Part shown: piece after piece, positions 20,171 through 41,787 of the stretch
Layout of the letters: each line of letters starts with the position of its first letter
Position numbering within the stretch: the first letter of the stretch is position 1
Translations under genes and position numbers: made by a program
Notes under the pieces: model-generated
Seen by the model: the letters and a program-made list of their open reading frames with translations, nothing else
Database searches by the model: none
Told to the model about the DNA's origin: nothing
Origin: Pseudomonadota bacterium
GTDB lineage: Bacteria; Pseudomonadota; Gammaproteobacteria; Pseudomonadales; Pseudohongiellaceae
Direction: 5' to 3'
NCBI GenBank assembly: GCA_027592275.1
Contig: JAQCKF010000002.1
Location: 124,001 to 188,000 of the forward strand
Length of the DNA: 64,000 bases

Positions 20171-21637
20171 GTGGCCCGTCCAAATATTGATGATTACTTC
20201 GGCGACTGGAAACAGCGCGAAGCACTAGTGCAGGAAATGATTCCTGCTATCGGTAGGCTATTTAGTCAGCGAAATGTAGGTATGTATATCTACGGTAGGC
20301 CGCTGCACAACCGATCTGTGACTTTTATCATGAAGGCGCATCGCTTCGTTCGTCAGATAGAACGCAATGAAATGTCGGAATTTGAGTCTCACCCCGTACT
20401 GATGGCACTGGCTAGGCTGGATCTTTGGCACGTGCAAATTGATTTAGGCAAGCTGACAGTTCGCTTCATGGAGCACCAGAAAGAGGAAGGAGACGCTGCT
20501 CAGGGCGTCGACGAATTTGTTCAGGGCGAACTGGCATACTTAGATGGCGTGAACGAGAAGCCGATTAAGAAATGCCAGCATGTCGTGCTATATGGTTTTG
20601 GGCGAATAGGCAGATTGATGGCTCGTTTGCTGATAGAACAAACGAGCACGGCAGAGATTATGCAGCTTAAGGCAATAGTAGTAAGGCCTGGCGGCGAAGG
20701 CGATCTGCAAAAACGGGCGAGCCTGTTCATGAATGATTCTGTGCACGGTGCCTTTCAAGGAACGCTGCGCGTCGATGAGCAGAACAACAGTCTTATCGCC
20801 AACGGTAACGAGATTAAGGTTATCTACGCGAATGCCCCTGAAGACATCGACTACACCCAATACGGTATCGAAGACGCGATGATCATCGATAACACCGGCA
20901 TCTGGCGTGACGAGGCTGGTCTTTCGCGTCATCTTCAGGCCAAAGGCGCGGCGATGGTGCTGCTCACTGCCCCGGGCAAGGGCAATATGAAGAATATCGT
21001 CTATGGTATCAACGACGATCAAATCTCTGCTGACGATACGATCCTCACTGCCGCTTCGTGCACCACTAATGCGATCGCGCCGGTACTGAAAGTAGTCAAT
21101 GACAGATTTGGCATTGTGAAAGGTCACGTGGAGACAGTTCACGCTTATACAAATGACCAGAACCTGATCGACAATTACCACACGGGTAGTCGTCGTGGTC
21201 GCTCTGCCGCATTGAATATGGTGCTGACAGAGACTGGTGCGGCGAAGGCCGTAGTCAAGGCCATCCCTGAGCTTGAAGGAAAATTGACTGGCAATGCGAT
21301 TCGCGTGCCAATTCCTAATGTATCTATGGCGATTATGAATTTGACGCTGGAGAAGGGAACTACGCGTGAAGAGCTTAATGAGTTTCTGCGGGATATCGCT
21401 CTACACTCCAAGCTACAGAATCAGATCAGTTATACTGAGTCTCCAGATGCCGTATCTAGTGATTTCGTGGGTAGCAGAGAGGCGTGCATTGTGGATAGTA
21501 ATGCCACCATCGTTAACGACAACCATGTAGTACTCTATCTGTGGTATGACAATGAATTTGGCTACTGTTGTCAGGTGGGCAGAATGGTTTACAAAATGGC
21601 AGGCATCATTTATCAGCAATATCCTTTAGAGGAATAG
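20171..21637 (+). CDS. gap: Glyceraldehyde-3-phosphate dehydrogenase, N-terminally extended type
   Basis: 488 residues: a ~135-residue N-terminal extension (DWKQREALVQEMIPAIG...) then a GAPDH domain with the NAD loop YGFGRIGRL (about 141-149) and the catalytic ASCTTNAIAPV (Cys at about 298). This is the long form next to mfd in Pseudomonas and other marine gammaproteobacteria. The extension's role is unclear. GTG start at 20171 with AAAGGGG upstream. Divergent from mfd. Confidence 0.93.
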   Translation: MARPNIDDYFGDWKQREALVQEMIPAIGRLFSQRNVGMYIYGRPLHNRSVTFIMKAHRFVRQIERNEMSEFESHPVLMALARLDLWHVQIDLGKLTVRFMEHQKEEGDAAQGVDEFVQGELAYLDGVNEKPIKKCQHVVLYGFGRIGRLMARLLIEQTSTAEIMQLKAIVVRPGGEGDLQKRASLFMNDSVHGAFQGTLRVDEQNNSLIANGNEIKVIYANAPEDIDYTQYGIEDAMIIDNTGIWRDEAGLSRHLQAKGAAMVLLTAPGKGNMKNIVYGINDDQISADDTILTAASCTTNAIAPVLKVVNDRFGIVKGHVETVHAYTNDQNLIDNYHTGSRRGRSAALNMVLTETGAAKAVVKAIPELEGKLTGNAIRVPIPNVSMAIMNLTLEKGTTREELNEFLRDIALHSKLQNQISYTESPDAVSSDFVGSREACIVDSNATIVNDNHVVLYLWYDNEFGYCCQVGRMVYKMAGIIYQQYPLEE

Positions 21638-21833: not shown

Positions 21834-22358
21834 ATGATCAGAACAAAACGCGGACCGAATCTACCGATTTCCGGAGCACCCGAACAGGTGATTGGAAAGG
21901 CCCGGTCGACGCGCTCCGTTGCATTACTTGGCTGCGACTACGTAGGCTTGAAACCAACCATGCTTGTGGCCGAAGGCGATAAGGTTTTGCTCGGCCAAGC
22001 CTTGTTTCGCGACAAGAAGAACCCCTCTGTAACATTTACCTCCCCTGGCTGCGGTCGAGTCAGCGCCATCAATCGTGGTCCGCAGAGAAAACTTCTCTCG
22101 GTCGTGGTTGACTTGGAAGAAGATGTGAGCGGCGCCGAACAGGTTGAGTTAAATAGTTATTCGGATGCGCAGCTCAAAGAATTACCCGCAGAAACCATTG
22201 TCGAAGACCTCCTGGTGTCCGGTCTATGGACATGCCTGCGAACGCGCCCCTTCAGTAAGGTAGCTGATCCATCCGGACCGGCACAACGAGAAGGGCGTAA
22301 TCAAGTTCAATATCCGCATCGCCACACCGCCGCCGCGCACGAAGTTTCCTGCCGGTAA
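21834..22358 (+). pseudogene. nqrA: Truncated nqrA: N-terminal part only, joined to nqrF
   Basis: Residues 1 to ~142 match the N-terminus of NqrA, the quinone-associated subunit of Na+-translocating NADH:quinone reductase: a PNLPISGAPEQVI start, YVGLKPTMLVAEGD, DKKNP and [15 protein letters not shown]. Normal NqrA is about 445 residues. After about base 22265 the match stops; the frame runs on through out-of-frame nqrF sequence to a stop at 22358. The rest of nqrA, nqrB, nqrC, nqrD, nqrE and the start of nqrF are missing. It cannot encode a working subunit. Confidence 0.9.
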
Positions 22359-22851
22359 GATGTCGTCCTATGTGTTTAACCTTAAGCCGGGTGATAAGGT
22401 AAAGGTATTCGGCCCCTTCGGCGAATTTTTTGCTAAGGAAACTGATGCGGAGATGGTGTTTATTGGTGGTGGTGCCGGCATGGCTCCAATGCGCTCACAT
22501 ATCTTCGACCAGCTTCGTAGATTGCACAGTGATAGAAAGATAAGCTTCTGGTATGGCGCTCGAAGTTTGCGCGAGATGTTCTACGAAGAGGATTACAACA
22601 CTCTCGCAAGCGAGAGTGATAATTTCGATTGGCATATTGCGCTCTCTGACCCTCAGCCGGAAGACAACTGGTCGGGCATGACTGGATTTATACACAATGT
22701 GGTTCTGGAAAATTATCTTCAGAATCATCCGGCGCCAGAAGACTGTGAATACTATATGTGCGGACCGCCGATGATGAACGCGGCAGTCATCAAGATGCTG
22801 AAAGATTTGGGTGTAGAAGACGAAAATATAGCTCTCGACGAATTCTCCTAG
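22268..22851 (+). pseudogene. nqrF: Truncated nqrF: C-terminal FAD/NAD reductase part only
   Basis: From about 22285 the frame encodes NqrF from [15 protein letters not shown] onward: [23 protein letters not shown], the NAD-binding [27 protein letters not shown] and YYMCGPPMM, to the normal C-terminus. The N-terminal membrane anchor, the 2Fe-2S ferredoxin domain and the FAD-contacting RAYS motif, roughly the first 220-230 residues, are absent. It is in a different frame from the nqrA fragment. An ATG at 22360 could start a 163-residue product but would lack most of the flavin site. Confidence 0.9.
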
Positions 22852-22904: not shown

Positions 22905-23960
22905 ATGAAAGTATTGTTCAACCGCCATAGCTTCGCAGCGACCTTTCTGGCCCTCATTCTCGGAGCGGTTTTTTTCTTCACCGGTGGCGACGACATTCAG
23001 CAACTGAATGGTCTCACCATGGGTACGAGTTATCAGGTTCAGATCGTGGATATGCCCGAGGATATTGCGACCCAGGACCTTGCTGCTGATATTGGTGAGT
23101 TACTGAGCCATCTAGATACCGAAACCTTCTCTACGTACGCCAGCAATTCCGAGCTATCTCGATTCAACCAACATGGGGTTAATATTCCCTTTATTGCCTC
23201 CTCCGAAATGATTGAGGTGCTGCTGATGGCGCAGGAAATTTCTGCGCTTAGCGGTGGCGCCTTTGATGTTACCGTAGGTCCACTGGTCAATCTGTGGGGT
23301 TTCGGCCCCGATCTTGCCGTGTTCGAGACAGTCCCTACACAGTCGCAAATAGATGCAGCACGGACTCGGGTAGGTTTCCAGTTTCTACGGATTAGCCCTT
23401 CCAATCGGGAGATCCGGAAGACGCGGGATATGTATATCGACCTGAGCGCCATAGCGAAGGGCTATGCCGTGGATCAGCTAGGTGAATATCTTGACCAGAT
23501 CGGAGTGGACAACTATTTCCTGGAAATAGGTGGCGAATTAAAGATTAAGGGCTCCAAACCTGGCGGCGAAGGTTGGGTGCCAGCGATAGAAGCCCCTGTA
23601 GACACTGCATCTCAGGTCTATCAGATTTTCTATAGCCGTGGTGATAATATTGCCGTAGCGGGTTCTGGCGATTATAGAAACTATTTTGAGGAAGCAGGGC
23701 AGCGCTATTCCCATGAGATTGATCCTCGAAATGGCAGGCCTATTACTCATAGCCTGGCAGCGGCATATGTAATCGATGAGTCTACGGCGCGCGCAGATGC
23801 GTTGGCGACCACGTATATGATTTTGGGCCCAGATGCTGCCGAGGAGTTAGCGTCGAAACAAGGGCAGGCGGTCTATTTCATATATAAGAGTGATTCAGAT
23901 GGATTCGAAGATTATGTTAGTGCTGAGTTTGGTCGTTATCTTGGAAGCAATTTACAATAA
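22905..23960 (+). CDS. apbE: FAD:protein FMN transferase ApbE
   Basis: 351 residues, intact. The N-terminal hydrophobic segment (about 10-26) is a signal/anchor placing it at the periplasmic face. ApbE motifs follow: GTSYQVQ, LSGGAFDVTVGPLVNLWGFG (about 113-132), DLSAIAKGYAVD (about 179-190), EIGGELKIKG, HEIDPRNGRP (about 270-279) and the metal-site ARADALATTYM. It transfers FMN from FAD to Thr (or Ser) in NqrB, NqrC, RnfG, RnfD and related proteins. It sits in its usual place behind nqrF, though the local NQR targets are deleted. nqrM follows 12 bases downstream. Confidence 0.95.
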   Translation: MKVLFNRHSFAATFLALILGAVFFFTGGDDIQQLNGLTMGTSYQVQIVDMPEDIATQDLAADIGELLSHLDTETFSTYASNSELSRFNQHGVNIPFIASSEMIEVLLMAQEISALSGGAFDVTVGPLVNLWGFGPDLAVFETVPTQSQIDAARTRVGFQFLRISPSNREIRKTRDMYIDLSAIAKGYAVDQLGEYLDQIGVDNYFLEIGGELKIKGSKPGGEGWVPAIEAPVDTASQVYQIFYSRGDNIAVAGSGDYRNYFEEAGQRYSHEIDPRNGRPITHSLAAAYVIDESTARADALATTYMILGPDAAEELASKQGQAVYFIYKSDSDGFEDYVSAEFGRYLGSNLQ

Positions 23961-23972
23961 GATGAGATTGAT

Positions 23973-24203
23973 ATGACTATTTTTCTAATTACATTCTTGA
24001 TCATGGCTGTGGTGATTGTGATCATGTCGGTCGGCGTGTTGTTCGGTCGCAAGCCTGTGCAGGGTTCCTGTGGCGGGATGAACAATATCGTTGGGCTAAA
24101 AGAGTGTGAGATATGCGGAGGTGAACCAGAATTCTGTCAGAATGAATTCCCTGACCGCGCAGAAGAACAGGTAGAACCTAATAGATCTATGTTACGTACC
24201 TAG
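23973..24203 (+). CDS. nqrM: NqrM, Na+-NQR maturation protein (DUF539)
   Basis: 76 residues: one N-terminal membrane helix (about 3-22), then GRKPVQGSCGG and a CEICGGEPEFC cysteine cluster. This is the small NqrM protein, needed to assemble NQR, probably by supplying iron to the NqrD/NqrE site. It is intact with ATG at 23973, in its usual position after apbE, although nqrB-E are missing. Confidence 0.9.
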   Translation: MTIFLITFLIMAVVIVIMSVGVLFGRKPVQGSCGGMNNIVGLKECEICGGEPEFCQNEFPDRAEEQVEPNRSMLRT

Positions 24204-24378: not shown

Positions 24379-25764
24379 ATGCAAAAAGAACACTTTGACA
24401 TCATAGTTATAGGAAGTGGCCCCGCGGGTGAGGCTGCTGCCATGAATGCGAAGAAGAAGGGCCGTACCGTTGCTATCGTATGTGACCTTGAATCTGTTGG
24501 CGGCAGTTGCACGCATTACGGAACGATACCCTCGAAAGCGCTACGCCATTCGGTTAAAGAAGTTATGCAGTTTAATGCGAATCCCATGTTTAGAGATTTG
24601 GGTGACGCTAGGAAATTAAGTTTCCAACAAGTATCGAAGCATGCCGATCGCGTTGTTTATGAGCAGGTACAGATGCGTACCGATTTCTACGACAGAAACC
24701 GCATTCCTATATATAAGGGCCGTGCTAGTTTCTTAGACAAGAATACAATCAAGCTTGTTGGTAAACGCAAGAAGTTATCGGCTAGTCATTTTGTGATCGC
24801 CACGGGCTCTAGCCCCTATCATCCGCCGGGCGTTGATTTTTCTCATCCTCGTATCTTTGATAGTGACACGATCCTAGGCATGGATGTCTCTCCGCGTAAG
24901 GTGACTATTATGGGGGCGGGTGTCATTGGTTGTGAATACGCTTCTATCTTTGGTGGGCTCGGGTGCAAGGTAGAATTAATTAACCCCGCTGCAAGCCTGC
25001 TAAGCTTCCTCGATACCGAGATATCAGATGCGTTAGGTTATCACCTGCGTAATCTCGGGGTGCGTAGTCGCCACAACGAGGAATTTGAGAAGATGGAGTA
25101 CTTCGATGACCACATCGTGACCTATCTCAAGTCAGGCAAGAAGATTCGCAGCGATATTGTTCTTTGGGCAAATGGTAGAAGCGGAAATACCAAGAACCTA
25201 GGACTAAATCTGATTGGGCTGAATACAAACAGCAGGCAACAGATATCAGTGAACAACAAGTATCAGACGTCAGTTAAAAATATCTACGCAGCGGGTGATG
25301 TGATTGGTTGGCCTTCGCTCGCCGGTGCTGCCTATGATCAAGGCAGGGCTGCGAGCAATGCGATTGTCGCGCCTGATGAGTGTTATCACGTTGAGCAGGT
25401 GGCAACCGGCATCTATACTATCCCTGAGATCAGCACGCTGGGTGCGACCGAGCAGGAGCTAACTGAGCAGAAAATACCTTACGAGGTAGGTAAGGCCTTC
25501 TTCAAAAACACCGCGCGGGCCCAGATTACAGGCGAGCAGGTGGGGATGTTGAAGCTGATCTTTCATTTCGAAACCTTGGAGCTCTTAGGTATTCATTGTT
25601 TCGGCGATCAGGCATCTGAGATCGTACATATCGGTCAGGCGATCATGCGCCAGAGTGCCCCTGCGAACTCAATGAATTATTTTCTCACTACGACGTTCAA
25701 CTACCCGACCATGGCGGAAGCCTATCGGACCGCCGCTCTTGATGGCTTAAACCGGGTTTTTTAG
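24379..25764 (+). CDS. sthA: Soluble pyridine nucleotide transhydrogenase
   Basis: 461 residues. A flavoprotein of the disulfide-reductase fold with FAD loop [10 protein letters not shown] (about 12-21), second Rossmann loop [13 protein letters not shown] (about 179-191) and FAD motif YAAGDVIG (about 310). The active-site region reads [18 protein letters not shown] with only one cysteine, which separates SthA from lipoamide and glutathione reductases. It moves hydride between NADPH and NAD+. ATG at 24379. In this order (apbE, nqrM, sthA) it matches Pseudomonas. Confidence 0.93.
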
Positions 25765-25865: not shown

Positions 25866-26336
25866 ATGATAAGAACTGCCAGAGATATTCTTAAAGACAA
25901 AGGCGGTCACATGGTAACTATCAATTCCGATTCGACCATCTACCAGGCGCTAACAATTATGACCCAGAACAAAGTGGGTTCTATTGTTGTGCTCGAAGAA
26001 GAAAAGATAATAGGTATCTGGACCGAGAGAGATTTGATGTTCCGTGCTATGGAAGAGGGGTTCAATCCAAAGACTGCGCGTCTAAAGGATAATATGAGCG
26101 TCAATATAATATCGGCCAATATCGAAGAGCAGGCGTACCAACTCGCCGACAAATTTCTTGGTCGCCGAGTTCGCCATCTATTGATAGAAGAAGGCGGGGA
26201 ATATATCGGCTTGCTTTCGGTGGGCGACGTGATGAAGGCCAACTTGCAACAGAAGAATGAAGAGTTCGAAAAGCTGAACCAGATGGTTAGCTTGGAGTAC
26301 TACGAGAACTGGAAAGAAATCCAATCGCAGCGTTAA
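25866..26336 (+). CDS. CBS-domain pair protein
   Basis: 156 residues made almost entirely of two CBS motifs: the first VTINSDSTIYQALTIM...GSIVVLEEEKIIGIWTERDL (about 17-56), the second with DNMSVNIISANIEEQAYQLA...GLLSVGDVM. Such pairs bind adenine nucleotides and usually act as energy sensors; there is no attached effector domain here. ATG at 25866, with GGAGAGCGAAG upstream. It is the last gene before the nuo operon. Specific role unknown. Confidence 0.85.
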   Translation: MIRTARDILKDKGGHMVTINSDSTIYQALTIMTQNKVGSIVVLEEEKIIGIWTERDLMFRAMEEGFNPKTARLKDNMSVNIISANIEEQAYQLADKFLGRRVRHLLIEEGGEYIGLLSVGDVMKANLQQKNEEFEKLNQMVSLEYYENWKEIQSQR

Positions 26337-26923: not shown

Positions 26924-26962
26924 GTGGGCCTGAAGCTTGTCGGGATGTTTGGAGTTAAGTGC

Positions 26963-27412
26963 TTGGAATTACCTAACGAAATGCTAGACGGTTTAAGACC
27001 GTTTCTTTTTTACTTCGCCTTGGTGATGGCTGTCGTGGTCATTATGCTTGGGCTGTCCTATTTTCTTGGGCAGCGTATTACTGCCCACTCCAAAAACCTA
27101 CCTTTTGAGTCTGGCATCGTCTCCGTGGGCAGCGCTCAATTTCGAATCTCGGTTCATTTCTATCTGCCGGCCATACTATTTATCATCTTCGACCTAGAAG
27201 TTGTCTTTCTTTTTGCCTGGGCTGTCGCCGTTAGAGAGGCGGGTTGGCCAGGTTTCATCGAAATCTCAGTATTTATCTTCATTTTAATCGCGGCCTTGTT
27301 CTACCTATGGCGCATAGGCGCGCTTGATTGGCGCACGCTCACGCAGAAACGGGAATTGAAAACCCTTATCGGACCTGGAGGCGTGACCAACAAAAAGGAA
27401 TTCAAATTATGA
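26963..27412 (+). CDS. nuoA: NADH-quinone oxidoreductase subunit A
   Basis: Small membrane subunit of complex I with three helices. The loop [26 protein letters not shown] (given here in two parts by homology: PFESG and VGSAQFRIS) and [11 protein letters not shown] are family signatures. I favour TTG at 26963 (149 residues) because GGAG lies eight bases upstream and the N-terminal length then fits Pseudomonas NuoA; GTG 26924, ATG 26945 and ATG 26981 are alternatives. Its TGA overlaps the nuoB ATG. Confidence 0.93.
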
Positions 27413-28050
27413 GTTGGGAGCTGCAGAAAGCAGAAGATGCCTCGTCACCACAGCCAGGTGGCAGTGCCATGGACGAATTTATCCGGCGCAATGTGGTGAT
27501 GGCGAATCTGGAGGATATGGTGTCTTGGGGTCGAAAGAACTCCATCTGGCCCTTCAATTTCGGTCTTTCTTGCTGTTATGTGGAGATGGCCACTGCGTTT
27601 ACCAGTCGCCACGACCTAGCTAGATTCGGCGCAGAGGTGATTCGTGGCACGCCTAGACAGGCGGACATGATCGTTATTGCGGGCACTGTGTTCCGTAAGA
27701 TGGCGCCTGTTGTGAAGCTTCTCTATGAACAGTTGCTTGAGCCGAAATGGGTAATCTCCATGGGCTCCTGCGCTAATTCCGGCGGTATGTATGACATTTA
27801 CTCGGTAGTACAGGGCGTGGATAAGTTCCTGCCCGTGGATGTCTATGTTTCTGGTTGTCCACCACGCCCCGAGGCCTTGCTGCAGGGGTTGATATTGCTA
27901 CAGGAATCGATTGGTAGGCAGCGACGGCCACTGAGTTGGGTGATCAATGATCAGGGCATTATTCAGAAGGAAGCGAACCCTGTGCAGCGTATCGTGCGCT
28001 CGCCAGATCGAATCGCGGCGACCGAGCTTCGTTCGCCGGATGATGTTTAA
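27409..28050 (+). CDS. nuoB: NADH-quinone oxidoreductase subunit B
   Basis: 213 residues. It carries the N2 [4Fe-4S] cluster that passes electrons to quinone: ligands in [17 protein letters not shown] and [11 protein letters not shown] at 27409 overlaps the nuoA stop by four bases (ATGA), indicating translational coupling; the frame is open further upstream but homology begins at this ATG. It is followed by an unusual A/T-only tandem repeat before nuoCD. Confidence 0.97.
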
Positions 28051-28051
28051 T

Positions 28052-28096
28052 ATTAAATATATTAAATATATTAAATATATTAAATATATTAAATCA
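28052..28096. repeat. A/T-only 9-bp tandem repeat between nuoB and nuoCD
   Basis: Four perfect copies of ATTAAATAT and a fifth ending TCA, directly after the nuoB stop (28050) and 33 bases before the nuoCD start. The surrounding 60 bases are almost pure A/T, unlike the rest of the operon. Confidence 0.9.
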
Positions 28097-28129
28097 ATTA
28101 ATTAAGTCGAATAGTTAAAGTAAAAAATA

Positions 28130-29911
28130 GTGATATCGAGCACAGAAAATAACAGCCAATCTCCTGACCAGGTGTCAGCCGCTTTAGTACAGCTGCGGCA
28201 AATGCATGGCAATCTCATAGTGGCTGAACAGACTACTTGCGATGGCATGCCTACGGTGTGGATTGAGCGGCAAAGCATAGACATAGTGCTGCGTGCGCTC
28301 AGAGATGAGACGACCCCACGCTTCGAGATGCTGTTCGATCTAACTGCTATCGATGAGCGACTGCGTAGCAACCGAGCAGGTCAGCCAGATAGCGAGTTCA
28401 CAGTCGTCTATCACCTCATGTCCTTCTCTGGGAATTGCGACTTTCGCATCAAAGTCGCCCTTCAGGACAGCGATCTAAGTATTCCGAGTATTGTCCGGCT
28501 ATGGCCCAACGCAAATTGGTACGAGCGTGAGGCCTGGGACATGTTTGGTATTAAATTCGATGGCCATCCGAATCTCTGTCGCATTGTGCTGCCTCCAACC
28601 TGGAAGGGCCATGCGCTGCGTAAGGAGCATCCAGCTCGCGCAACTGAGATGGAGCCATTCACACTTGATGATGACCAATTGGACTACGAGCAAGAAGCGC
28701 TAAAATTTAAGCCAGAAGACTGGGGAATGAAAAGGGAGTCTGAGAATTCAGAGTTCATGTTTCTCAATTTGGGTCCTAATCATCCGAGTGTGCACGGCGC
28801 CTTTCGCATTGCCCTGCAGTTGGACGGTGAGATTTTAGTAGATGCCGTGCCAGATATTGGCTACCACCATCGTGGCGCCGAGAAGATGGGCGAGCGGCAA
28901 TCGTGGCATACCTATATTCCTTACACGGATCGTATCGACTACCTGGGTGGGGTCCTGAACAATCTGCCCTATGTCATGGCGGTTGAGAAGATGGCTGGCA
29001 TCGAGGTGCCGGAGCGGGTGAAGGTTATCCGCGTCATGCTCTGTGAAATGTTTCGAATCTGTAGTCACCTCCTGTTCTATGGCACTTTTGCACAGGACGT
29101 GGGGCAGCTCTCTCCGATTTTTTATATGTTTGTGGAGCGCGAACGTATCTTCAACATCATCGAGTCCATCTGCGGCGCACGTATGCATCCAGGTTGGTTT
29201 CGAATCGGCGGCGCAGCGCAAGACTTACCGAATGGCTGGGAGAAGCGCATTCAAGAGCTGCTGGACTTCATGCCAGCTCGATTAGATGAATACGACAGCA
29301 TGGTAATGAACAACGGCATCCTGAAGAGACGAACTCAGGGCGTCGGTGTATATGACACGAAAGAGGCGCTTAACTGGGGTGTGACCGGTGCGGGTTTAAG
29401 AGCCACGGGCCTGGAATGGGATTTCCGTAAACAGCGTCCTTATAGCGGGTATGAAAACTTCGACTTCGACGTGCCTATTGCCGTCAATGGCGACTCTTAT
29501 GATCGCTGTGCAATACGCGTTGAAGAGATGCGTCAGAGCCTGCGCATCATTAAGCAGTGCATGGACAATATGCCGTCGGGCCATTACAAGTCCGATCATC
29601 CGCTGACAACACCGCCGCGTAAAGAAAACACAATGCAGGATATCGAGACGCTGATAAACCACTTCTTAAGTGTTAGTTGGGGGCCGGTAATTCCTCCAAA
29701 TGAAGTGACAATGGCGGTCGAGGCGACGAAGGGTATTAACAGCTACTATTTAGTAAGTGACGGTAGCACCACTTCTTATAGGACGCGGATACGAACACCA
29801 TCGTTTGCTCACCTGCAGATGATTCCGGAGATATCGCGAGGCTTTATGGTCGCAGACCTCATCGCCATCATCGCGAGTATCGATTTCGTTATGGCGGATG
29901 TAGACAGATAG
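28130..29911 (+). CDS. nuoC: NADH-quinone oxidoreductase subunit C/D (fused)
   Basis: 593 residues, the NuoC-NuoD fusion found in Gammaproteobacteria (E. coli about 600). NuoC domain at about 1-190 ([38 protein letters not shown]), linker, then NuoD at about 205-593 ([35 protein letters not shown]-terminal MADVDR). It forms the peripheral-arm quinone pocket with NuoB. GTG start at 28130; ribosome-binding sequence is weak and A-rich. Confidence 0.96.
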
Positions 29912-29925
29912 AAGCAAAGAGACAA

Positions 29926-30438
29926 ATGAGTCAGCAAGTAATAGCAAGCACAGCAAATAAAGCTCGTAAGTTGTCTGCGGAGGAGATCGCGGAGATCGAA
30001 CACGAGATGACTTTGTATCCCGACAAGAGAGCGGTTGGTTTGGAAGCGCTGAAAATTGTGCAAAAACACCAGGGTTGGGTTTCCGACGAGAGTCTTCTTG
30101 GTATTTCAAAGTACTTGGATATTCCTGCCGCTGACTTGGAAGGAGTGGCGACATTCTTTAATTTGGTTTATCGCCAGCAAGTTGGCAAGAACGTTATTTT
30201 ATTCTGCGATAGCGTAAGTTGTTGGATCATGGGCTGCGAGGGCATCAAGGGTCATATCAAAGAGCAACTTGCTATCGACTACGGGGAGACGACTGAGGAT
30301 GGCGACTTTACGCTGATTCCAGTTCCCTGTTTAGGAGATTGCGACAGGGCGCCGGTTATGATGGTGGGCCCGGATCTCCATAGAAACCTGACACCGGAAA
30401 AGATTGATTCCATTATCAAAGACTACAAAAGCAAATAG
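29926..30438 (+). CDS. nuoE: NADH-quinone oxidoreductase subunit E
   Basis: 170 residues. Thioredoxin-like 2Fe-2S subunit (cluster N1a) of the NADH-dehydrogenase module: first Cys pair in CDSVSC, second in CLGDC, with ATFFNLV upstream as in the family. ATG at 29926, 14 bases after nuoCD. Confidence 0.96.
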   Translation: MSQQVIASTANKARKLSAEEIAEIEHEMTLYPDKRAVGLEALKIVQKHQGWVSDESLLGISKYLDIPAADLEGVATFFNLVYRQQVGKNVILFCDSVSCWIMGCEGIKGHIKEQLAIDYGETTEDGDFTLIPVPCLGDCDRAPVMMVGPDLHRNLTPEKIDSIIKDYKSK

Positions 30439-30456
30439 GATTAAACGGATACTTAA

Positions 30457-31737
30457 GTGGTAACAAATCCATTAACAAAGAATATTGATATGTCTCGCCC
30501 GCCGCTGGACATCGCCGCCTATGAGGCGAACGATGGCTATCAGAGCGTGCATGCCATCGCCAAGGGATTGAGCCCAGAAGATGTTCTGGAGTTGGTAAAA
30601 GGCTCCGGATTAAAAGGTCGAGGCGGCGCAGGATTTCCAACCGGTTTGAAGTGGAGCTTCGTGCCTAGAGGGGACAACTCTCCCAAGCAGAAATATTTGG
30701 TAGTCAATGCTGACGAGATGGAGCCGGGTACTTTTAAAGACAGGCTACTGATGGAGGGCGACCCGCACCTCATGCTCGAAGGCATGATTATCGCCGCCTA
30801 CACGATTCAGGCGAGCAAAGCCTATATCTTTTTGCGTGGTGAATACACGGTTTCCGAGCAGGCTCTGCGCAGGGCTATAAAAGAAGCGTACGAGAAAGGC
30901 TATCTGGGGAAGGACATTCTCGGCACGGGTTTCGATCTGGATATTATTATGCACACGAGTGCTGGCCGGTATATTTGCGGCGAAGAAACAGCCTTGTTGA
31001 ATGCCTTGGAAGGTAAACGAGCAAATCCGCGCGCCAAGCCGCCATTTCCACAGGTGAGCGGGCTTTGGGGAAAGCCAACTATTGTCAACAACGTAGAAAC
31101 CATATGCAATTTGCCGGGGATTTTAACCTACGGTGTCGACTGGTATCACGGCTTGACGAAGGGTAACGATCACGGCACCAAGCTATTCGGAGTTAGCGGC
31201 AAGGTGAAGACGCCGGGCTGCTGGGAATTACCGCTTGGCTTGCCCATAAGAGAATTGTTAGAAGGCTATGCCGGCGGCATGCAGGATGGTCTAGAGCTTA
31301 GAGGTTTTCTTCCTGGTGGCGGGTCAACCGACTTTATGTTGCCGGAGCACCTCGACGTAACACTTGATTACGACGAGATCGCGAAAGTAGGTAGCAGGCT
31401 AGCGACTGGCACAATGATTGTATTAGACGATAAGACTTGCCCCGTAGGGATGGTGGGAAATCTTATGAAGTTCTTTGCGCATGAGTCCTGTGGTTTCTGT
31501 ACGCCGTGTCGCGATGGCCTGCCTTGGGTCGATCAGATTTTCCGTGACTTCGAGAATGGTGAAGGCAGCGAAAAAGACTTACAGATACTGCATGACCACG
31601 TCACTTATCTGGGGCCGGGTAGAACATTTTGTGCATTAGCGCCTGGCGCCACTGCGCCATTAGGTAGCGGGCTGAAATATTTTAAAGAAGATTTCGAAAA
31701 ACATATCACGCAGAAGCGTTGTAGCTATAAACACTGA
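30457..31737 (+). CDS. nuoF: NADH-quinone oxidoreductase subunit F
   Basis: 426 residues. The NADH- and FMN-binding subunit: GRGGAGFPTGLKW (about 54-66), NADEMEPGTFKDR, GEETALLNALEG (about 175-186), and cluster N3 ligands in ESCGFCTPCRDG and FCALAPG. NADH is oxidised here. GTG at 30457, 18 bases after nuoE; GTG is the only plausible start near the conserved N-terminus. Confidence 0.97.
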   Translation: MVTNPLTKNIDMSRPPLDIAAYEANDGYQSVHAIAKGLSPEDVLELVKGSGLKGRGGAGFPTGLKWSFVPRGDNSPKQKYLVVNADEMEPGTFKDRLLMEGDPHLMLEGMIIAAYTIQASKAYIFLRGEYTVSEQALRRAIKEAYEKGYLGKDILGTGFDLDIIMHTSAGRYICGEETALLNALEGKRANPRAKPPFPQVSGLWGKPTIVNNVETICNLPGILTYGVDWYHGLTKGNDHGTKLFGVSGKVKTPGCWELPLGLPIRELLEGYAGGMQDGLELRGFLPGGGSTDFMLPEHLDVTLDYDEIAKVGSRLATGTMIVLDDKTCPVGMVGNLMKFFAHESCGFCTPCRDGLPWVDQIFRDFENGEGSEKDLQILHDHVTYLGPGRTFCALAPGATAPLGSGLKYFKEDFEKHITQKRCSYKH

Positions 31738-31774
31738 TAATTTCAGTGTTGTCTAGCTATGCTTGGAGTAACTG

Positions 31775-34507
31775 ATGGCGAAAATTGTTATTGATGGGGT
31801 GGAGCACGAGGTAAACCCCGATAACAATCTGTTGCAGGAGTGTCTGTCGCTGGGTCTAGACTTGCCTTACTTTTGCTGGCATCCAAGCATGGGTTCTGTC
31901 GGTGCCTGTCGTCAATGCGCGGTTATGCAATACCGCGATGCGGATGACAAGGAAGGCATGTTGGTTATGGCGTGCATGACCCCTGCTACCGACGGGGCGA
32001 TCATTTCTCTAGAGGCCGAAGGAGCCAAGTCCTTCAGGTCCGATGTCATCGAGAGTCTCATGATCAGTCACCCGCATGACTGCCCTGTCTGCGAAGAAGG
32101 AGGGGAGTGTCACCTTCAGGATATGACGCAGATGTCGGGTCACAACTACCGTCGCTACGACAAGAAGAAGAGAACACACCACAATCAATACCTTGGACCG
32201 TTCATCAATCACGAGATGAATCGCTGCATCACCTGCTATCGCTGTGTTCGCTATTACGGCGACTACGCCGGAGGCACCGATCTATCGGCACAGGCTTCTC
32301 ATCATCATGTCTATTTTGGTAGGCACGAAGAGGGTGTGCTGGAGAGTGAATTCAGCGGCAATCTGGTCGAGGTTTGCCCGACAGGTGTTTTCACAGACAA
32401 GGGGTTTAGTGAGAATTACAGCCGCAAGTGGGATCTACAGACGGCTCCCTCAGTGTGTGTCGGTTGCTCGGTGGGTTGTAACACCACGCCAGGTGAGCGC
32501 TACGGAAGCCTGCGTAGAATCGTCAATCGCTACAACAGCGAAGTCAATGGCTACTTTCTCTGCGACAGGGGCCGTTTTGGTTTCGATTTTGTAAACAACC
32601 CAGACCGCTTGTTAGAGCCAGTACAGCGCGTCGATAACACGGGCGAGTTGTTGGCAGATGATCAAATTAAGGCGCTCATTAAAGAATTCAAAGCAGATGG
32701 GACCATAGGCATCGGTTCTCCACGGGCTAGCAACGAATCGAATTTCGCGCTGCGCGCTATGGTAGGCGAAGAAAATTTCTACGCGGGTTATTCCGACGTC
32801 GAACATGATTCGATGCAGGTGATACTAGAGCTAGCGAGCGACGTGGCGTTCCATAGTCCTAGCGTGCGTGAGATCGAAGCAGCCGACGCAGTGCTGATTC
32901 TCGGAGAAGACGTAACGAATGTAGCGCCGCGCATAGCGCTAGCACTACGTCAGTCGGTGCGTAACAAGGCCAAGGATCTCGCAGAGGATAGCAGAATACC
33001 CCAGTGGCAGGACGCCGCAGTGCGCGAACTCGCTCAACATGAGCGTAGCCCGCTGAGCATCCTTAGTCCGGCAGTAAGTAGGCTTGACGACGTGGCCTCC
33101 GATAGAATTATCGAATCACTTTCTGTAGTGGTTTCGATGGGGCATCAAATTGCGAACAGAATATCAGCATCGGCTCCTAGCGCCGCTGCATCCACAGAGC
33201 ATAGCGAAGTAATAGAGAAGATCGCCATGCAGCTGAAGTCCGCGAAACGGCCTTTGATCATTGCAGGTAACAGCAATGGCAGCGACGTGATCAAGGCCGC
33301 CGCAAACATCGCTAGAGCTCTGCGTGATGGTAGTGATGGGCCTGCAATAGACCTTTGTCTGTTAGTGCCTGAAGTAAATAGCGTTGGTATGGGTTTAATG
33401 GCCAGCGCAGAAAATCCACTAGGCGCTGCATTGGAAAAATTACAAAGCGGCGAAGCGAAGCGCGTCATCGTGCTGGAGAACGACCTCTATCGCCGAGCAG
33501 CGAAGGCAGCGGTAGACGCTGCGCTTACTAAAGCTACAAAAGTATTGGTTCTAGATCAATTGCCTACGGCAACAACAGCTAATGCAGATGTGATTCTACC
33601 CGCCACGGCGTTCTCGGAACACGAAGCTACGTATATTAATTACGAGGGTAGGGCGCAGCTTAGTTTCCAAGTGCATCAGTGTCAGAAACAAGCGCAACCT
33701 TCTTGGCGCTGGATTTGCGATGCCGAGCATGTTGACGACTTGGTCGAACGTTGTTGTAACGAAGCCCCAGGTTTCGCTCGCCTGCGTGAAGTGTTGCCGG
33801 GAGAGAATCCATTTGTAGCAGGCATGAAGGTGCCACGGCAGTCTCATAGATACAGTGGCCGCACCGCGATGCTCGCAAACGTAAACGTGCACGAGCCAAA
33901 ACAGATGGAAGACAAAGACTCCATTATGTCTTTCTCGATGGAAGGCATACCCGCGCAGAAAGATGCGAGTGTCCTCGCGTCTTCATGGGCGCCAAAGTGG
34001 AATTCGAATCAATCTATCAGTAAGTTTCAGGACGAAGTGAACGGTGAGTTGAAGCAGGGGCACGTAGGCTGTCTGTTGATAGAGAGGAAAAATTCCAGCG
34101 GTAGTTACTTCGAAGCCGCCACAGAATTGAAAGAGCCGTCTGCCAAGCAGCTGCGCGTGGTTTTTTCCTATCAAATATTTGGCAGCGACGAATTAAGTGC
34201 GCGCTCCAAGCCTATTCAGGCGCGAATGACAGATGCTTACATTGGCCTGTCTCCCCAGGATGCTAGAAAGAGAGGTTTGAGTCACGGTGACGTGGCGACA
34301 ATCAGTCCTTTGGGCTCACCTGTAGTGGTCTGTATTCGTACCGGCATCAAGGTTGGCACTGCCATGCTGCATTGCGGTGATGGCAATATCAGCCCCGCCG
34401 ACTTTTCTGGCTTGATCGAGGTAGAGAAGAGTGCAACACAGACAACGAGTCGCGGTATTGGGAACCTGATTGTTAGCGATTTCCACGAAGAGGAAATTAA
34501 CTCATGA
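31775..34507 (+). CDS. nuoG: NADH-quinone oxidoreductase subunit G
   Basis: 910 residues, matching E. coli NuoG in length. Order: 2Fe-2S ferredoxin domain (C.....GACRQC), the [18 protein letters not shown] segment (N5), [11 protein letters not shown] and [10 protein letters not shown] (N4), then CVGCSVGCN with FLCDRGRFG (the extra N7 cluster kept in many bacteria), and a molybdopterin-oxidoreductase-like domain that binds no cofactor in complex I. ATG at 31775; its stop overlaps nuoH by four bases. Confidence 0.96.
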
Positions 34508-35463
34508 CATTCGAGGTGGGTTCCGGATTAAGCATAGGCGTAATACTGACGACGGTGATTATCGTCGCGGCTATGCTGATTTGGGTAGAGCGCCGCTTGT
34601 TAAGCTTCTGGCAGGAACGGCTAGGGCCAAATCGCGTAGGTCCTTTCGGCCTACTGCAGGTCGTCGCCGATATGATTAAGATTTTTACCAAGGAAGACTG
34701 GATTCCTCCTTTCGCGGATAAGTTTAGTTTCGTGCTGGCCCCCGCCATCATCATGACGGTGATCTTGATGAGCTTCAGTGTCGTCCCGTTTGCTCCTGGT
34801 GTTGGAGTTGTCGACTCTAATATAGGTGTTCTCTTCGTGTTGGCAATGGCATCTCTTGGGGCGTATAGCGTCATGTTGGCCGGTTTATCATCCGACAACA
34901 AATATGCTTTGTTAGGCGCATTGCGTGCAGCGGCGCAAATGATTAGCTACGAAGTCTTCATGGGCATCTCTATTCTTGGTGTTGTCGCTCTTTCCGGCAC
35001 ATTTAATCTGCGAGAGATCGTGCTGGCGCAAGAAGAGAACGGTTGGTATGTCATACCGCAGTTCATTGGTTTTGTGATCTTCCTGATCGCGGGCGTAGCA
35101 GAGAGTCACCGACTACCTTTCGACATTCCCGAGGCAGAGCAAGAAATCTGTGCGGGTTACCACACTGAATATTCAGGCATGAAGTTTGGCATGTTTTTCG
35201 TAGGGGAATACCTAGGCTTGGTATTGATAGCTTCATTGATCACAGTGCTGTTCTTCGGTGGATGGCTAGGGCCTGCGTTCTTGCCGCCTATAGTTTGGTT
35301 TTCACTAAAGGCATTTGCATTTATTGCCTTCTTTATTTTATTGCGCGCAGCTATTCCACGTCCGCGCTACGACCAACTGATGAGCTATGGCTGGTTATTT
35401 CTACTGCCAGTTTCACTGTTAAACCTGCTGATTACTGGCGTGATTATTTTGAGTACATCTTAA
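34504..35463 (+). CDS. nuoH: NADH-quinone oxidoreductase subunit H
   Basis: 319 residues with eight predicted membrane helices. NuoH joins the peripheral arm to the membrane arm and lines the quinone channel: [21 protein letters not shown] near the N-terminus (signature ERR and GPNRVG), [14 protein letters not shown] and [14 protein letters not shown] at 34504 in ATGA overlap with nuoG. Confidence 0.96.
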
Positions 35464-35487
35464 TGTTGCGAATATTTGGAGAAAGAC

Positions 35488-36027
35488 ATGCTCACCTTGA
35501 TTAAGGACACACTGACGAGTCAGGTGGTTACCCTATGGCGGGTGTTCTCACATCTGTGGGTAAAGGCTGACACCGTCGAGTATCCTGATGAGCAACCATA
35601 TATGTTTCCGCGCTGGCGCGGTCGTATCATCCTTAGTCGCGATCCAGACGGCGAAGAGCGTTGTGTAGCTTGCAATCTCTGCGCGGTAGCTTGTCCAGTG
35701 GACTGCATCGCTTTGCAGAAAACCGAGGATGAGGAAGGGCGCTGGTATCCTGAATTTTTCCGCATCAATTTTTCTAGATGCATTATGTGTGGTTTCTGCG
35801 AAGAAGCCTGCCCCACGAATGCTATTCAGCTAACGCCGGATTTCGAGATGGCGGAATACAAGCGGCAGGACATGGTGTGGGAGAAGGAAGACTTATTGAT
35901 CGACGGCACAGGGAAATACCACGATTACAATTTCTATCGTGTCGCAGGTAAGAAGATTGGTGGCAAAGACAAGGGCGAGGCACTTAATGAAGCCGTGCCA
36001 GTTAATGTGAGGAGTCTGTTGCCGTGA
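35488..36027 (+). CDS. nuoI: NADH-quinone oxidoreductase subunit I
   Basis: 179 residues. It holds clusters N6a and N6b: [12 protein letters not shown] (about 59-70) and [12 protein letters not shown] (about 99-110). ATG at 35488 is preferred, with GGAG seven bases upstream; a TTG at 35476 is in frame but inside that site. Its stop overlaps the nuoJ GTG. Confidence 0.96.
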
Positions 36028-36506
36028 TTTTGCTCTTCTACATAGCCGGTGCTGTAGCTGTTATTTCGACTGTGGCGGTCATCTTACAGACGAATATTGT
36101 GCACGCGCTTATCTATCTAATTCTCTCGCTGTTGGCCGTAGCCGTTTGTTTCTATGTGTTGGGTGCGCCGTTTGCCGCCGTTTTGGAAGCTATCGTCTAC
36201 GCCGGTGCGATCATGGTGTTGTTCCTGTTTGTGATTATGATGCTGAACATGGGGCAGCATAGTATCGATCAGGAGCGCAGCTGGATGGGGCCAAAAATAT
36301 GGATAGTGCCTTCAATACTGGCTTCGGTGTTACTCGCGCAACTACTTACAGTAATCACGCAATATGATCATGAACTCGCGTTAACGACAGTCGATGTTAT
36401 GGAAGTGAGTGCATTGCTGTTCGGCCCCTATGTGTTGGCGGTCGAATTAGCTTCACTATTGCTACTTGCAGGTCTGGTTGCCGCTTACCACTTAGCAAAA
36501 AAATGA
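36024..36506 (+). CDS. nuoJ: NADH-quinone oxidoreductase subunit J
   Basis: 160 residues, five membrane helices. Signature segments [17 protein letters not shown] and [20 protein letters not shown] (shortened here: [14 protein letters not shown]) match NuoJ, which takes part in coupling. GTG at 36024 overlaps nuoI. A 76-base spacer follows before nuoK, longer than usual for this operon and without evident signals. Confidence 0.95.
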
Positions 36507-36582
36507 ACTGAAAAAAGTGAAAGAGAACGAAATGTCAAAGCCACACACACAAGCAATTCAATCGAGCGAGCAGAGATAGACG

Positions 36583-36891
36583 ATGGAGTCGATCCCAATT
36601 GAACATGGACTAATACTGGCCGGCATATTATTTGTGCTCGGTTTAGTCGGTGTATTGACGCGACGCAACATTGTGTTCGTGCTCATGTCGCTTGAAATTA
36701 TGATCAACGCGAGTGGCCTGGCTTTCATTGTGGCGGCATCGCGTTGGGAGCATGCCGACGGTCAGATTATGTTTCTCATGATTCTTACCTTGGCTGCTGC
36801 GGAAGTGGCTGTGGGCCTAGGTCTTATTATTCAAATGTACCGGCGCTATCACACGGTCGATATCAATGTGTTAAGTCAGATGAAGGGATAG
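36583..36891 (+). CDS. nuoK: NADH-quinone oxidoreductase subunit K
   Basis: 102 residues, three helices, the normal NuoK length. [11 protein letters not shown] holds the conserved membrane Glu, and [13 protein letters not shown] the second one; both belong to the proton pathway. ATG at 36583. Confidence 0.96.
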
Positions 36892-36906
36892 GGGCAAGAA
36901 GCTAGC

Positions 36907-38760
36907 GTGCAAGATCTAATTTGGCTATTACCGACGTTTCCGTTACTGGGCTTTCTAAGTCTAGTGCTTACTAGTGGGAATCTGCCGAAGAAAGTCGTTG
37001 GCGCTATCGGTGCCGGGTCTATAGGTCTGTCATTCCTGACCGCAGCGATGATCGCCTATCAGTTTCTAGGCTCAGGTGAGACGCACCTTGTTATTGAGAT
37101 GTGGGCCTGGATGGCAGTAGGCAACTTCACTCCGGGTTTTAGTTTCTATCTAGACGGTCTCGCGGTTGTCATGATGCTGATCATCACTGGCGTAGGATTC
37201 CTGATTCACCTCTACTCCGCAGGTTTCATGCTGGACGATCCTAGCTACAGCCGCTTCTTCTCATACATGAATCTGTTTGTGGCTTCGATGCTGGTGTTGG
37301 TCCTAGCTGATAACTTGTTGCTCCTCTATCTAGGCTGGGAAGGGGTAGGCTTGTGTAGCTATCTACTTATAGGGTTCTGGTATGAGAAACCCGAGAACGG
37401 CTATGCGGCGAGAAAGGCATTCATCACGACTCGCGTCGGCGACACCTCGATGGCCATTGGCCTGTTTCTGTTGTTCGCTGAACTGGGCACGCTAAATATA
37501 CAAGAGATGTTGCACGCGGCCGAGACTGAATGGGCTGTTGGTTCTGGCCTAGCCGTTGCCGCTTCTTTATTACTACTAGGTGGCGCGGTGGGTAAGTCCG
37601 CGCAACTGCCACTACAGACTTGGCTGCCAGACGCGATGGCTGGTCCTACACCGATCAGCGCGTTGATTCATGCCGCGACAATGGTCACTGCCGGCGTTTA
37701 TTTGATTGCGCGCACTCATGTATTGTTTGAACTCGCACCCAACGTGCAGCTACTGGTTGCGTGGATCGGCTTGATTACCTTGTTGATGGCTGGCTTCACC
37801 GCCATGACACAGCACGATATCAAACGAATTCTCGCCTACTCAACGATCAGTCAGATTGGCTATATGTTTCTAGGTTTAGGTGTTGGTGCCTGGTCGGCCT
37901 CGGTTTTTCATCTGATGACCCACGCGTTCTTCAAGGCCTTGTTATTCCTAGCCGCGGGCACGGTAATTCACAGTCTGCATCACGAGCACAACATCTTTAA
38001 GATGGGTGGCAAGCGCAAGCAACTACCAATCGCCTTCGCCTCATTTATGATAGGCAGCCTCGCCTTGGCAGCTTTCCCATTCACTTCCGGCTACTTCAGT
38101 AAGGATGAGATTCTTATTGCTGCTTTGGAGATGGAAGGGCCTGGCATGGTTCTCTGGCTAGGCGGTGTACTAGGCGCCTTCCTTACTGGCATCTACAGTT
38201 TTAGGCTCGTGTTCGTCGTGTTCTTCGGTGAGAGCAAGGGGCATCATGAGGAGAAAGAGGTCGCAGGTTTTAGCATGGCGACCCCGCTAATAATTTTAAT
38301 GGTGCTCGCGTTGTTTGGCGGCTGGATACAGATTCCCGTAGACGCAGTATTTAGTCACGGTGAGGTTCATGTGCAAGAGCACCATATCAGTGGCCTGATG
38401 CACGCGATCATGATCTCCGTACCGCTATTAGGGATTGGAGTCAGCTATATATTCTTCATGTCGAAAACGTTCTCGGTAGATAAGCTCATGGCCAATCCGC
38501 TCGCGACGCGTCTGCATGGATTCTGGTTCAGCGGATGGGGGATGGATGCGCTCTACAATTTTCTCTTCGTGAGGCCATTCGTATTCCTAGCTCGGATCAA
38601 TAAGAACGATCTAATCGATGCCGTATACGCATTGCTGGTGGAAATCTCTCGGGTCGCCCACGTTATGATAGGGCGCACGCAAAACGGCCAGCTACGTTGG
38701 TATGCGCTGAGCATCGGCGGCGGTGTGGTGATCTTGATCACCCTGGGAGTAGTGCTATGA
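36907..38760 (+). CDS. nuoL: NADH-quinone oxidoreductase subunit L (antiporter-like)
   Basis: 617 residues. Antiporter-like proton-pumping subunit at the tip of the membrane arm. Landmarks: FYLDGLAVVM, LLLLYLGWEGVGLCSYLLIGFW (shortened), SAQLPLQTWLPDAMAGPTPISALIHAATMVTAG (shortened: TWLPDAMAGPTPISALIHA), KRILAYSTISQIGYM and GYFSKDEI; the lateral helix is at the C-terminus. GTG at 36907, 15 bases after nuoK. TGA overlaps nuoM. Confidence 0.96.
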   Translation: MQDLIWLLPTFPLLGFLSLVLTSGNLPKKVVGAIGAGSIGLSFLTAAMIAYQFLGSGETHLVIEMWAWMAVGNFTPGFSFYLDGLAVVMMLIITGVGFLIHLYSAGFMLDDPSYSRFFSYMNLFVASMLVLVLADNLLLLYLGWEGVGLCSYLLIGFWYEKPENGYAARKAFITTRVGDTSMAIGLFLLFAELGTLNIQEMLHAAETEWAVGSGLAVAASLLLLGGAVGKSAQLPLQTWLPDAMAGPTPISALIHAATMVTAGVYLIARTHVLFELAPNVQLLVAWIGLITLLMAGFTAMTQHDIKRILAYSTISQIGYMFLGLGVGAWSASVFHLMTHAFFKALLFLAAGTVIHSLHHEHNIFKMGGKRKQLPIAFASFMIGSLALAAFPFTSGYFSKDEILIAALEMEGPGMVLWLGGVLGAFLTGIYSFRLVFVVFFGESKGHHEEKEVAGFSMATPLIILMVLALFGGWIQIPVDAVFSHGEVHVQEHHISGLMHAIMISVPLLGIGVSYIFFMSKTFSVDKLMANPLATRLHGFWFSGWGMDALYNFLFVRPFVFLARINKNDLIDAVYALLVEISRVAHVMIGRTQNGQLRWYALSIGGGVVILITLGVVL

Positions 38761-40259
38761 TTTTAGTAGTGCTCATAAGCATATTGTTTCTAGGTGGTGT
38801 GCTCGCCTGGTTGTCTGAAGGATTGGATTCTAAGTTTCCGAGAATAGTTGCTTTGGCAGCTGTAGTGATCGACTTACTGGTCATGATGGCTCTAGTGGGT
38901 ACCGATACCGAGGGCGCTGGCTGGATCGTTGAGCTCAATGCTCAGTGGATCCCGCGCTTCGGTATTTCCTTTCATCTGGCAGCGGATGGGCTAAGCGTCC
39001 TGATGATGCTGCTAACAGCCTTTCTTGGAATTATAGCAGTTGGCTCGGCATGGGATGAGATCACCGAGAGAACTGGATTCTTCTATTTTAATCTGCTCTG
39101 GACTCTTGCCGGCGTTATCGGTGTCTTCACCGCGCTTGATCTCTTCCTGTTTTTCTTCTTCTGGGAAGTCATGTTGATTCCTATGTATTTCATAATCGCG
39201 ATCTGGGGGCATGAGAACAAGAACTACGCGGCGATGAAGTTCTTTATCTTTACTCAGGTCACTGGAATGCTGATGCTGATATCGATACTGGTATTAGCTT
39301 ATTTTCACTATGTACAATTTGGATGGTTCAGTTTCGATTACTTCGATCTGTTGAAGGTAAATACCAGAAGTGCGATAGAAATGTGGATCATGCTTGGCTT
39401 TTTCGTGGCCTTCAGTACTAAGTTGCCAAGCTTCCCTTTTCATTCTTGGCTGCCCGATGCTCATTCACAGGCACCGACTGCTGGTAGTGTTCTTCTGGCT
39501 GGGGTGCTACTGAAGACTGGTGCCTATGGGCTGATAAGATTCGCCGTGCCGCTCTTTCCAGAAGCGTCGATGCAGTTTGCCCCATTCGCAATGACCCTGG
39601 CGGTTATCAGTATTCTCTACTGTGCCAAGGTGGCCTTCGCACAAACAGATTTAAAACGGCTGATTGCTTACACCAGTGTGAGCCATATGGGTTTCGTTAT
39701 GCTCGGCATCTATGCGTGGAACGAACAAGCATTGCAGGGTGCAGTAATGACGATGTTGGCACACGGTCTAAGTGCTGCAGCATTGTTCATGTTAGCGGGC
39801 GGCTTGCAGCATCGAATTCATACGCGCGATATGGATCATATGGGGGGGTTCTGGGCGAAAGTGCCACGACTATCCTTCGTCGCCTTATTTTTCTCAATCG
39901 CTGCATTAGGTATGCCGGGTCTTGGAAACTTCGTCGGTGAGTTTCTCGTATTGTTAGGCGCGTTTCAGGCGAGCATTGGTCTTACGGTTGCTGCCGCATT
40001 TGGTCTCATATTTGCGTCGGTCTATTCGCTTTGGGTTATTCAAAAGGTTTTTCATGGCGCGTATCGAAACTCGGATTTCGATGATGCTCACCTGCACGAC
40101 CTGAGTCGTCGTGAGATGTTTTATTTCGCAGCTATGATGATTGGCCTAATTTGGATGGGCATGTACCCTCAAAGCTTTTTGGATATGTCGTCCGACTCTC
40201 TGACGAATTTACTTAACGAAACTGGGCAACTCCTCTTTGCACAGGGCAGCGAGCTATGA
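38757..40259 (+). CDS. nuoM: NADH-quinone oxidoreductase subunit M (antiporter-like)
   Basis: 500 residues, second antiporter-like subunit. Landmarks: FFFWEVMLIPMYFII (conserved Glu), KLPSFPFHSWLPDAHSQAPT, KRLIAYTSVSHMGF and GNFVGEF. ATG at 38757 overlaps the nuoL stop by four bases; the frame is open upstream inside nuoL but homology begins at this ATG. Confidence 0.96.
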   Translation: MILVVLISILFLGGVLAWLSEGLDSKFPRIVALAAVVIDLLVMMALVGTDTEGAGWIVELNAQWIPRFGISFHLAADGLSVLMMLLTAFLGIIAVGSAWDEITERTGFFYFNLLWTLAGVIGVFTALDLFLFFFFWEVMLIPMYFIIAIWGHENKNYAAMKFFIFTQVTGMLMLISILVLAYFHYVQFGWFSFDYFDLLKVNTRSAIEMWIMLGFFVAFSTKLPSFPFHSWLPDAHSQAPTAGSVLLAGVLLKTGAYGLIRFAVPLFPEASMQFAPFAMTLAVISILYCAKVAFAQTDLKRLIAYTSVSHMGFVMLGIYAWNEQALQGAVMTMLAHGLSAAALFMLAGGLQHRIHTRDMDHMGGFWAKVPRLSFVALFFSIAALGMPGLGNFVGEFLVLLGAFQASIGLTVAAAFGLIFASVYSLWVIQKVFHGAYRNSDFDDAHLHDLSRREMFYFAAMMIGLIWMGMYPQSFLDMSSDSLTNLLNETGQLLFAQGSEL

Positions 40260-41719: not shown

Positions 41720-41787
41720 GTTTTATTTAGGCTCATCCTGAAAGTGAATCGCGTCTTATCCAGGTGCTGTTTGCGGCGGTGGATAGT

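Follow-up and report, generated by a model that had tools for sequence, protein, structure and literature searches.

According to the available text of PMC4014512, several proteobacteria have lost the Na+-NQR, Escherichia coli most conspicuously, and the words deletion, pseudogene and apbE are absent from the main text of that paper. The losses were inferred there from absence across large groups, in line with the accessible literature, in which the loss of Na+-NQR is deduced from presence or absence over such groups. As in those lineage-level losses, the whole nqr operon appears to be lost from the locus described here, but this locus presents itself as a fresh scar with both ends preserved and is accompanied by scars of different age within a single genus. 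In V. cholerae, the genes are arranged as nqrABCDEF-apbE-nqrM, the order also found in the intact relatives of our bacterium; ApbE flavinylates RNF and NQR, and NqrM matures NQR (available text of PMC12174285). In comparison with an operon of the V. cholerae type, 304 codons of nqrA, the complete nqrBCDE and approximately 221 codons of nqrF are missing from our locus, as counted against the intact operon of genome G017. No nqr deletion scars of such a kind were reported in the literature searched, which includes few subscription journals. Five Pseudomonas loci (L080, L085, L089, L090 and L102) are arranged as gapdh-apbE-sthA and resemble our locus in that apbE and sthA are kept and no intact nqr lies between gapdh and apbE. 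They differ from it in belonging to another genus, in which they represent a parallel loss, and in having no nqr remnant detectable by tblastn at E <= 1e-6.

The window, that is, the whole stretch of 64,000 nucleotides analysed here, comprises bases 124001-188000 of contig 19 of genome G000 (3.2 Mb, 43 contigs, 95% complete). All genes mentioned for it are located on the forward strand, beginning with the glyceraldehyde-3-phosphate dehydrogenase gene upstream of nqr (gapdh, PRK08289 type, 20171..21637; NF006139, E 1.5e-225). The nqrA remnant (21834..22285) consists of codons 1-150 plus two bases, as delimited by profile matches and the end of the blastn alignment, and lies in an open reading frame of 174 aa (21834-22358) with its stop codon at 22356-22358. 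Residues 1-146 of this stub match positions 1-142 of 447 in the NqrA model (E 6.1e-53), and its Pfam domains are NQRA_N and the start of NQRA_2nd. The nqrF remnant (22286..22851), identified by TIGR01941 and Pfam in a scan covering 22279-22848, contains the end of the FAD-binding domain (FAD_binding_6, 57-97/99) and the NAD-binding domain (NAD_binding_1), and the frame of 22288-22851 matches positions 216-403 of 405 in the TIGR01941 nqrF model (E 8.1e-107). Downstream follow apbE for the flavin transferase, which is kept (22905..23960; PF02424, E 3.8e-77), nqrM for the NQR maturation factor with an open frame (23973..24203; PF04400, E 8.5e-11), sthA for the Si-specific NAD(P)+ transhydrogenase (24379..25764; NF003585, 679.6 bits, cut-off 465) and a gene for a CBS-pair protein (25866..26336; PF00571 in two stretches, E 2.4e-17).

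In genomes G017 and G013 of the same genus, nqrABCDEF is found at the same place, with colinear flanks of 81-86% DNA identity. Against both of them, the left blastn alignment ends at window position 22285 and the right one starts at 22286, which sets the junction at 22285..22286: GGCACA at 22280-22285 is still nqrA-like, and ACGAGAAGG is nqrF-like from 22286 onward. An earlier reading of the DNA made from its letters only, here called the sequence-only reading, had proposed an nqr operon collapsed to an nqrA-nqrF scar, and the family matches together with the clean gap relative to G017 and G013 confirm this. It had put the retained part of nqrA at about 142 codons, which the alignment extends to 150.7, next to the last approximately 188 codons of nqrF. 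That the two pieces sit in different frames was borne out by the open reading frames, and alignment to both relatives confirmed that the rest of nqrA, nqrB-E and the first half of nqrF are gone. Not one of the six nqrABCDEF genes is present at the locus in full length, and what is left is nqrA 1-150 and nqrF ~222-409. The missing DNA measures 4,932 bp relative to G017 and 4,943 bp relative to G013, within the 4.5-5 kb that had been estimated. Relatives had also been named as the place in which to look for an intact operon; besides G017 and G013, the sister genome G087 (FastTree support 96) carries it on two contigs, whose ends in nqrB are its sole interruption. The window very probably contains a recent 4.93-kb deletion within a formerly intact nqrABCDEF operon.

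On the sequence evidence, the event is one of several nqr losses in the genus. The G080 deletion removed approximately 5.98 kb relative to the closely related G091, to which both flanks are 96-97% identical; it starts ahead of nqrA and leaves about six codons at the end of nqrF. G020 retains about 260 nqrA codons with an internal TGA that run into apbE, nqrA 1-79 is joined to nqrF 370-408 in G003, and in G077 nqrF is represented by 21 bp of its end. The alignment of G092 to G077 continues through the site, so these two probably have one deletion event in common, and five distinguishable deletions are seen in six genomes including the window. A native operon, whether complete or interrupted by contig ends, was detected in 24 of the 84 genus genomes, although incomplete genomes may hide more; if only the 48 genomes of 90% completeness or more and 5% contamination or less are considered, the number is 17 (counted by hand from rounded figures). 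On a midpoint-rooted FastTree phylogeny of 74 genomes, built from five neighbouring proteins with gappy rows, the distribution of intact operons against the rest takes at least 10 changes, and losses-only counting under the same root gives 11 nqr-less clades. Across the order, NqrF was matched at E <= 1e-60 in 341 of 390 sampled genomes and 126 of 142 genera (the window remnant counted), and gapdh is followed by nqrA as the next searched gene in 41 of 80 named loci, which makes it most likely that nqr presence is ancestral in the order. The window event is ordinary in kind; what is unusual is to find it in the company of many sister losses that differ in age.

At the join in the window, 0-1 base is common to both ends. 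The sequence-only reading had taken ATCCATCC at the join as a hint of short-repeat recombination, but this word (22267-22274) lies entirely within the nqrA side, stops short of the join and is, like its reverse complement, absent from the nqrF region of G013, the relative tested; being present on one side only, it was rejected as a recombination repeat. In G013, a different word, TCCGGAC, is found close to each breakpoint, in nqrA as well as in nqrF, and the window has it on the nqrA side (22272..22278, forward strand). A 7-mer was common to 24-bp segments placed at random points of G013 nqrA and nqrF in 1.8% of draws, and the vicinity of TCCGGAC to both breakpoints is only suggestive as a trace of short-repeat deletion. 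At the G020 scar, TTTA is common to both sides of G091; with G080 as the source of the right flank, the common word becomes ACTGTTTA. About 1 base is in common at the G080 scar. Illegitimate recombination with little or no homology would explain the cut in the window and fits G020 and G080 as well.

The remnants are without sign of decay, in agreement with the recent event assumed in the sequence-only reading. The dN/dS against intact copies was 0.080-0.180 for the nqrA remnant (7 of 8 comparisons, one undefined) and 0.027-0.067 for the nqrF remnant (8 of 9 comparisons, one undefined). Among intact copies, the values were 0.064-0.212 for the nqrA part and 0.012-0.090 for the nqrF part. The relaxed constraint expected of an old scar was therefore not seen in the remnants, whose values fall inside the range of intact copies and make a recent event probable, the pairwise measure being an insensitive one because the comparisons mostly predate the deletion. 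The frames of nqrM and the CBS gene in the window are open, too. Such a lack of decay may mean that the deletion is recent, that the assembly is wrong or that the allele is segregating, and of these three we favour the recent deletion.

A segregating deletion allele, present alongside intact operons in the population, with the assembly having caught one of the two forms and a similar allele occurring in the species of G013, is the strongest of the alternatives, though we consider it unlikely. It would account for the undecayed window and for a contig break in G013. There, contig C17 breaks off within nqrA at the final base of TCCGGAC, at a distance of 7 bp from where the left breakpoint of the window would fall, and it shares 756 identical bases with the start of the intact contig C15 (L015 7833-8588, L016 1-756). 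The matching word in G013 nqrF ends 2 bases into the part kept on the right of the window. A contig branch is expected at precisely that base of TCCGGAC if a deletion allele segregated in the G013 sample, and the contig ends expected by chance in a 15-bp stretch amount to 0.00024 for G013 and 0.041 summed over the 24 intact genomes, an estimate made post hoc. However, a contig of the deletion allele was not found in G013, C15 is unbroken through the right side, and contig ends are not enriched inside nqr (11-12 counted by hand against 13.5 expected), so that no sign of polymorphism comes from their number. Frame-changing indels, some of them compensating, are spread all over the G013 assembly (62 in ~63 kb aligned, 34 + 28 in two contigs), and breaks in it may have other causes; the nqrE and nqrF frameshifts of G013 were rejected as pseudogenes on account of these indels. 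The contig break perhaps reflects a segregating deletion.

Considerably less probable is an assembly error, by which the assembler would have skipped 4.93 kb of an operon that is intact in the organism. Undecayed remnants, nqrM and CBS gene would look alike in a misassembly, the join is read from the assembled contig, and the G013 contig also ends at this spot. Against this, there is no long repeat at the join, just the 7-bp word, and the remaining parts of nqrA and nqrF as well as nqrB and nqrE were not found elsewhere in the assembly. Moreover, a lone error is unlikely because leftovers of this operon that end at different positions are seen in five related genomes, nqrM having decayed in G077 and G092. 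Residual activity of the remnants, whether of the nqrF tail as a stand-alone NADH reductase or of the nqrA stub as a separate protein, is scarcely credible despite open frames and low dN/dS in both, since recency explains low dN/dS too, pieces in related scars are shorter or interrupted, and the nqrF piece begins only at position 57 of the FAD-binding model with everything earlier gone, presumably including the membrane helix and the 2Fe-2S domain. The scar most likely reflects a genuine, recent deletion by which Na+-NQR was lost.

The sequence-only reading had further suggested a look at the rest of the genome. Queries with NqrA, NqrB, NqrE and NqrF gave no second copy of these genes in the 95%-complete G000, and NqrC was covered through PF04205. 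The NqrA query matched the stub only, and the NqrF query found the remnant and one 32% match over residues 44-130, nothing else. The sole NqrB match (34-37%), a strong one on contig 16, was rejected as a second nqr gene because it is RnfD, and NqrE gave matches of 28-33% to rnfA and rnfE of that contig and to nothing else. The PF03116 profile likewise detected no second nqr gene in G000, a weaker match on contig 15 scoring 21.7 bits, below the cut-off, and PF04205 had two matches, one to an rnfG-like gene and one to a 189-aa protein. RnfA, B, C, D and E are encoded on contig 16 (L187), with A and E under the model cut-offs and D above its subfamily cut-off. This rnfABCDE operon is without rnfG, and the rnfG-like gene for an FMN-binding protein is placed apart from it, after nuoN in the window (41764..42444; PF04205; NF002519, E 9.8e-26, 90.7 bits, under the cut-off of 178); the impression that rnfG is missing was dropped owing to this candidate. 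A full complex I operon (nuoA, B, CD, E-N; 26924..41719) is present in the window, its nuoA recognized by Pfam only, without an NCBIfam match. A NuoB match was obtained for 73 of the 84 genus genomes, 7 of the 11 misses being less than 90% complete, and that of G017 is diverged (63%).

We hypothesize that the cell makes no Na+-NQR and that NADH enters complex I instead. The nqr remnants would be without function, and the overlap between complex I and NQR would allow the cell to do without the latter. The usual persistence of apbE would be due to further clients of its product, RNF for example, and nqrM and the CBS gene would decay later than the structural genes. In 48 of 51 nqr-less loci, apbE was found alongside gapdh, and the contig ends soon in two of the remaining three. 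Genome G072 (96% complete) has a 19.4-kb locus (L132) with gapdh and without nqr, and no apbE match anywhere in the genome. Given that apbE is also kept where the NqrB query, which is not a strict RnfD search, found no RnfD-like gene (e.g., G055 and G085), RNF may not be the only client of ApbE. Among the nqr-less loci, nqrM occurs only in G000, G003, G077, G080 and G092, and it is broken in G077. Because this one genus includes genomes with an intact operon, a fresh cut, scars in partial decay and clean losses, an order of gene loss becomes visible, in which the structural genes go first, nqrM and the CBS gene follow, and apbE and complex I are mostly kept. Which change of life removes the sodium pump and which accessory genes serve this pump alone can now be tested; the literature accessible to us holds nothing specific on habitat or salinity as a cause of nqr loss.

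The CBS-pair gene is a candidate for such a partner of NQR. It is full-length in 22 of the 24 intact genomes, and its ortholog was not found in G024 and G007, whose contigs end before its place. Within the 60 genomes in which no native operon was detected, it is full-length in the window only and reduced to a pseudogene or fragment in G080 (frameshift and stop), G003, G077, G092 and G093. The other 54, some of which are incomplete, yielded no ortholog. In six independent pairs that differ in nqr, five changed the same way as nqr, none the opposite way and one showed no difference (p 0.0625), so that the co-loss test alone is short of significance; it left out 20 of the 74 tree rows for want of a clear CBS state, and G008 is outside the tree. 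If the assignment is true, the CBS-pair protein could plausibly act as a nucleotide sensor that regulates the pump, its gene staying alongside nqr and disappearing later. The counts outside the genus speak against a general link between CBS and nqr. Twenty-two of the 41 named gapdh-nqrA loci extend at least 700 bp beyond sthA, and a CBS match was found in L024 alone, apparently from this genus. None of 30 order-level nqrF loci had a match, these loci being 2.9-4.2 kb long in all and reaching about 1.5 kb past nqrF, short of the 3 kb at which the gene lies in the window. In the literature accessible to us, CBS domain, Na+-NQR and nqrF were not found together in one paper. The wider reading of the genus, with repeated Na+-NQR loss, partly by recurring cuts at one nqrA/nqrF site that still segregate in populations, and with an order of decay that exposes an undescribed CBS-pair partner, is accordingly put forward only tentatively, and we hold it to be possible but rather doubtful as a whole.

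Second, diverged nqr operons are found away from the native locus in three genomes of the genus (L173 in G061, L174 in G096 and L175 in G058), with NqrA 43-47% identical. A CBS-pair gene lies directly 3' of nqrF in each of them and has 27% identity to the CBS gene of the window type. Near each of these operons there is a large outer-membrane-like ORF, and in L173 a glutamate-dehydrogenase-like ORF adjoins the CBS gene, both named by eye.
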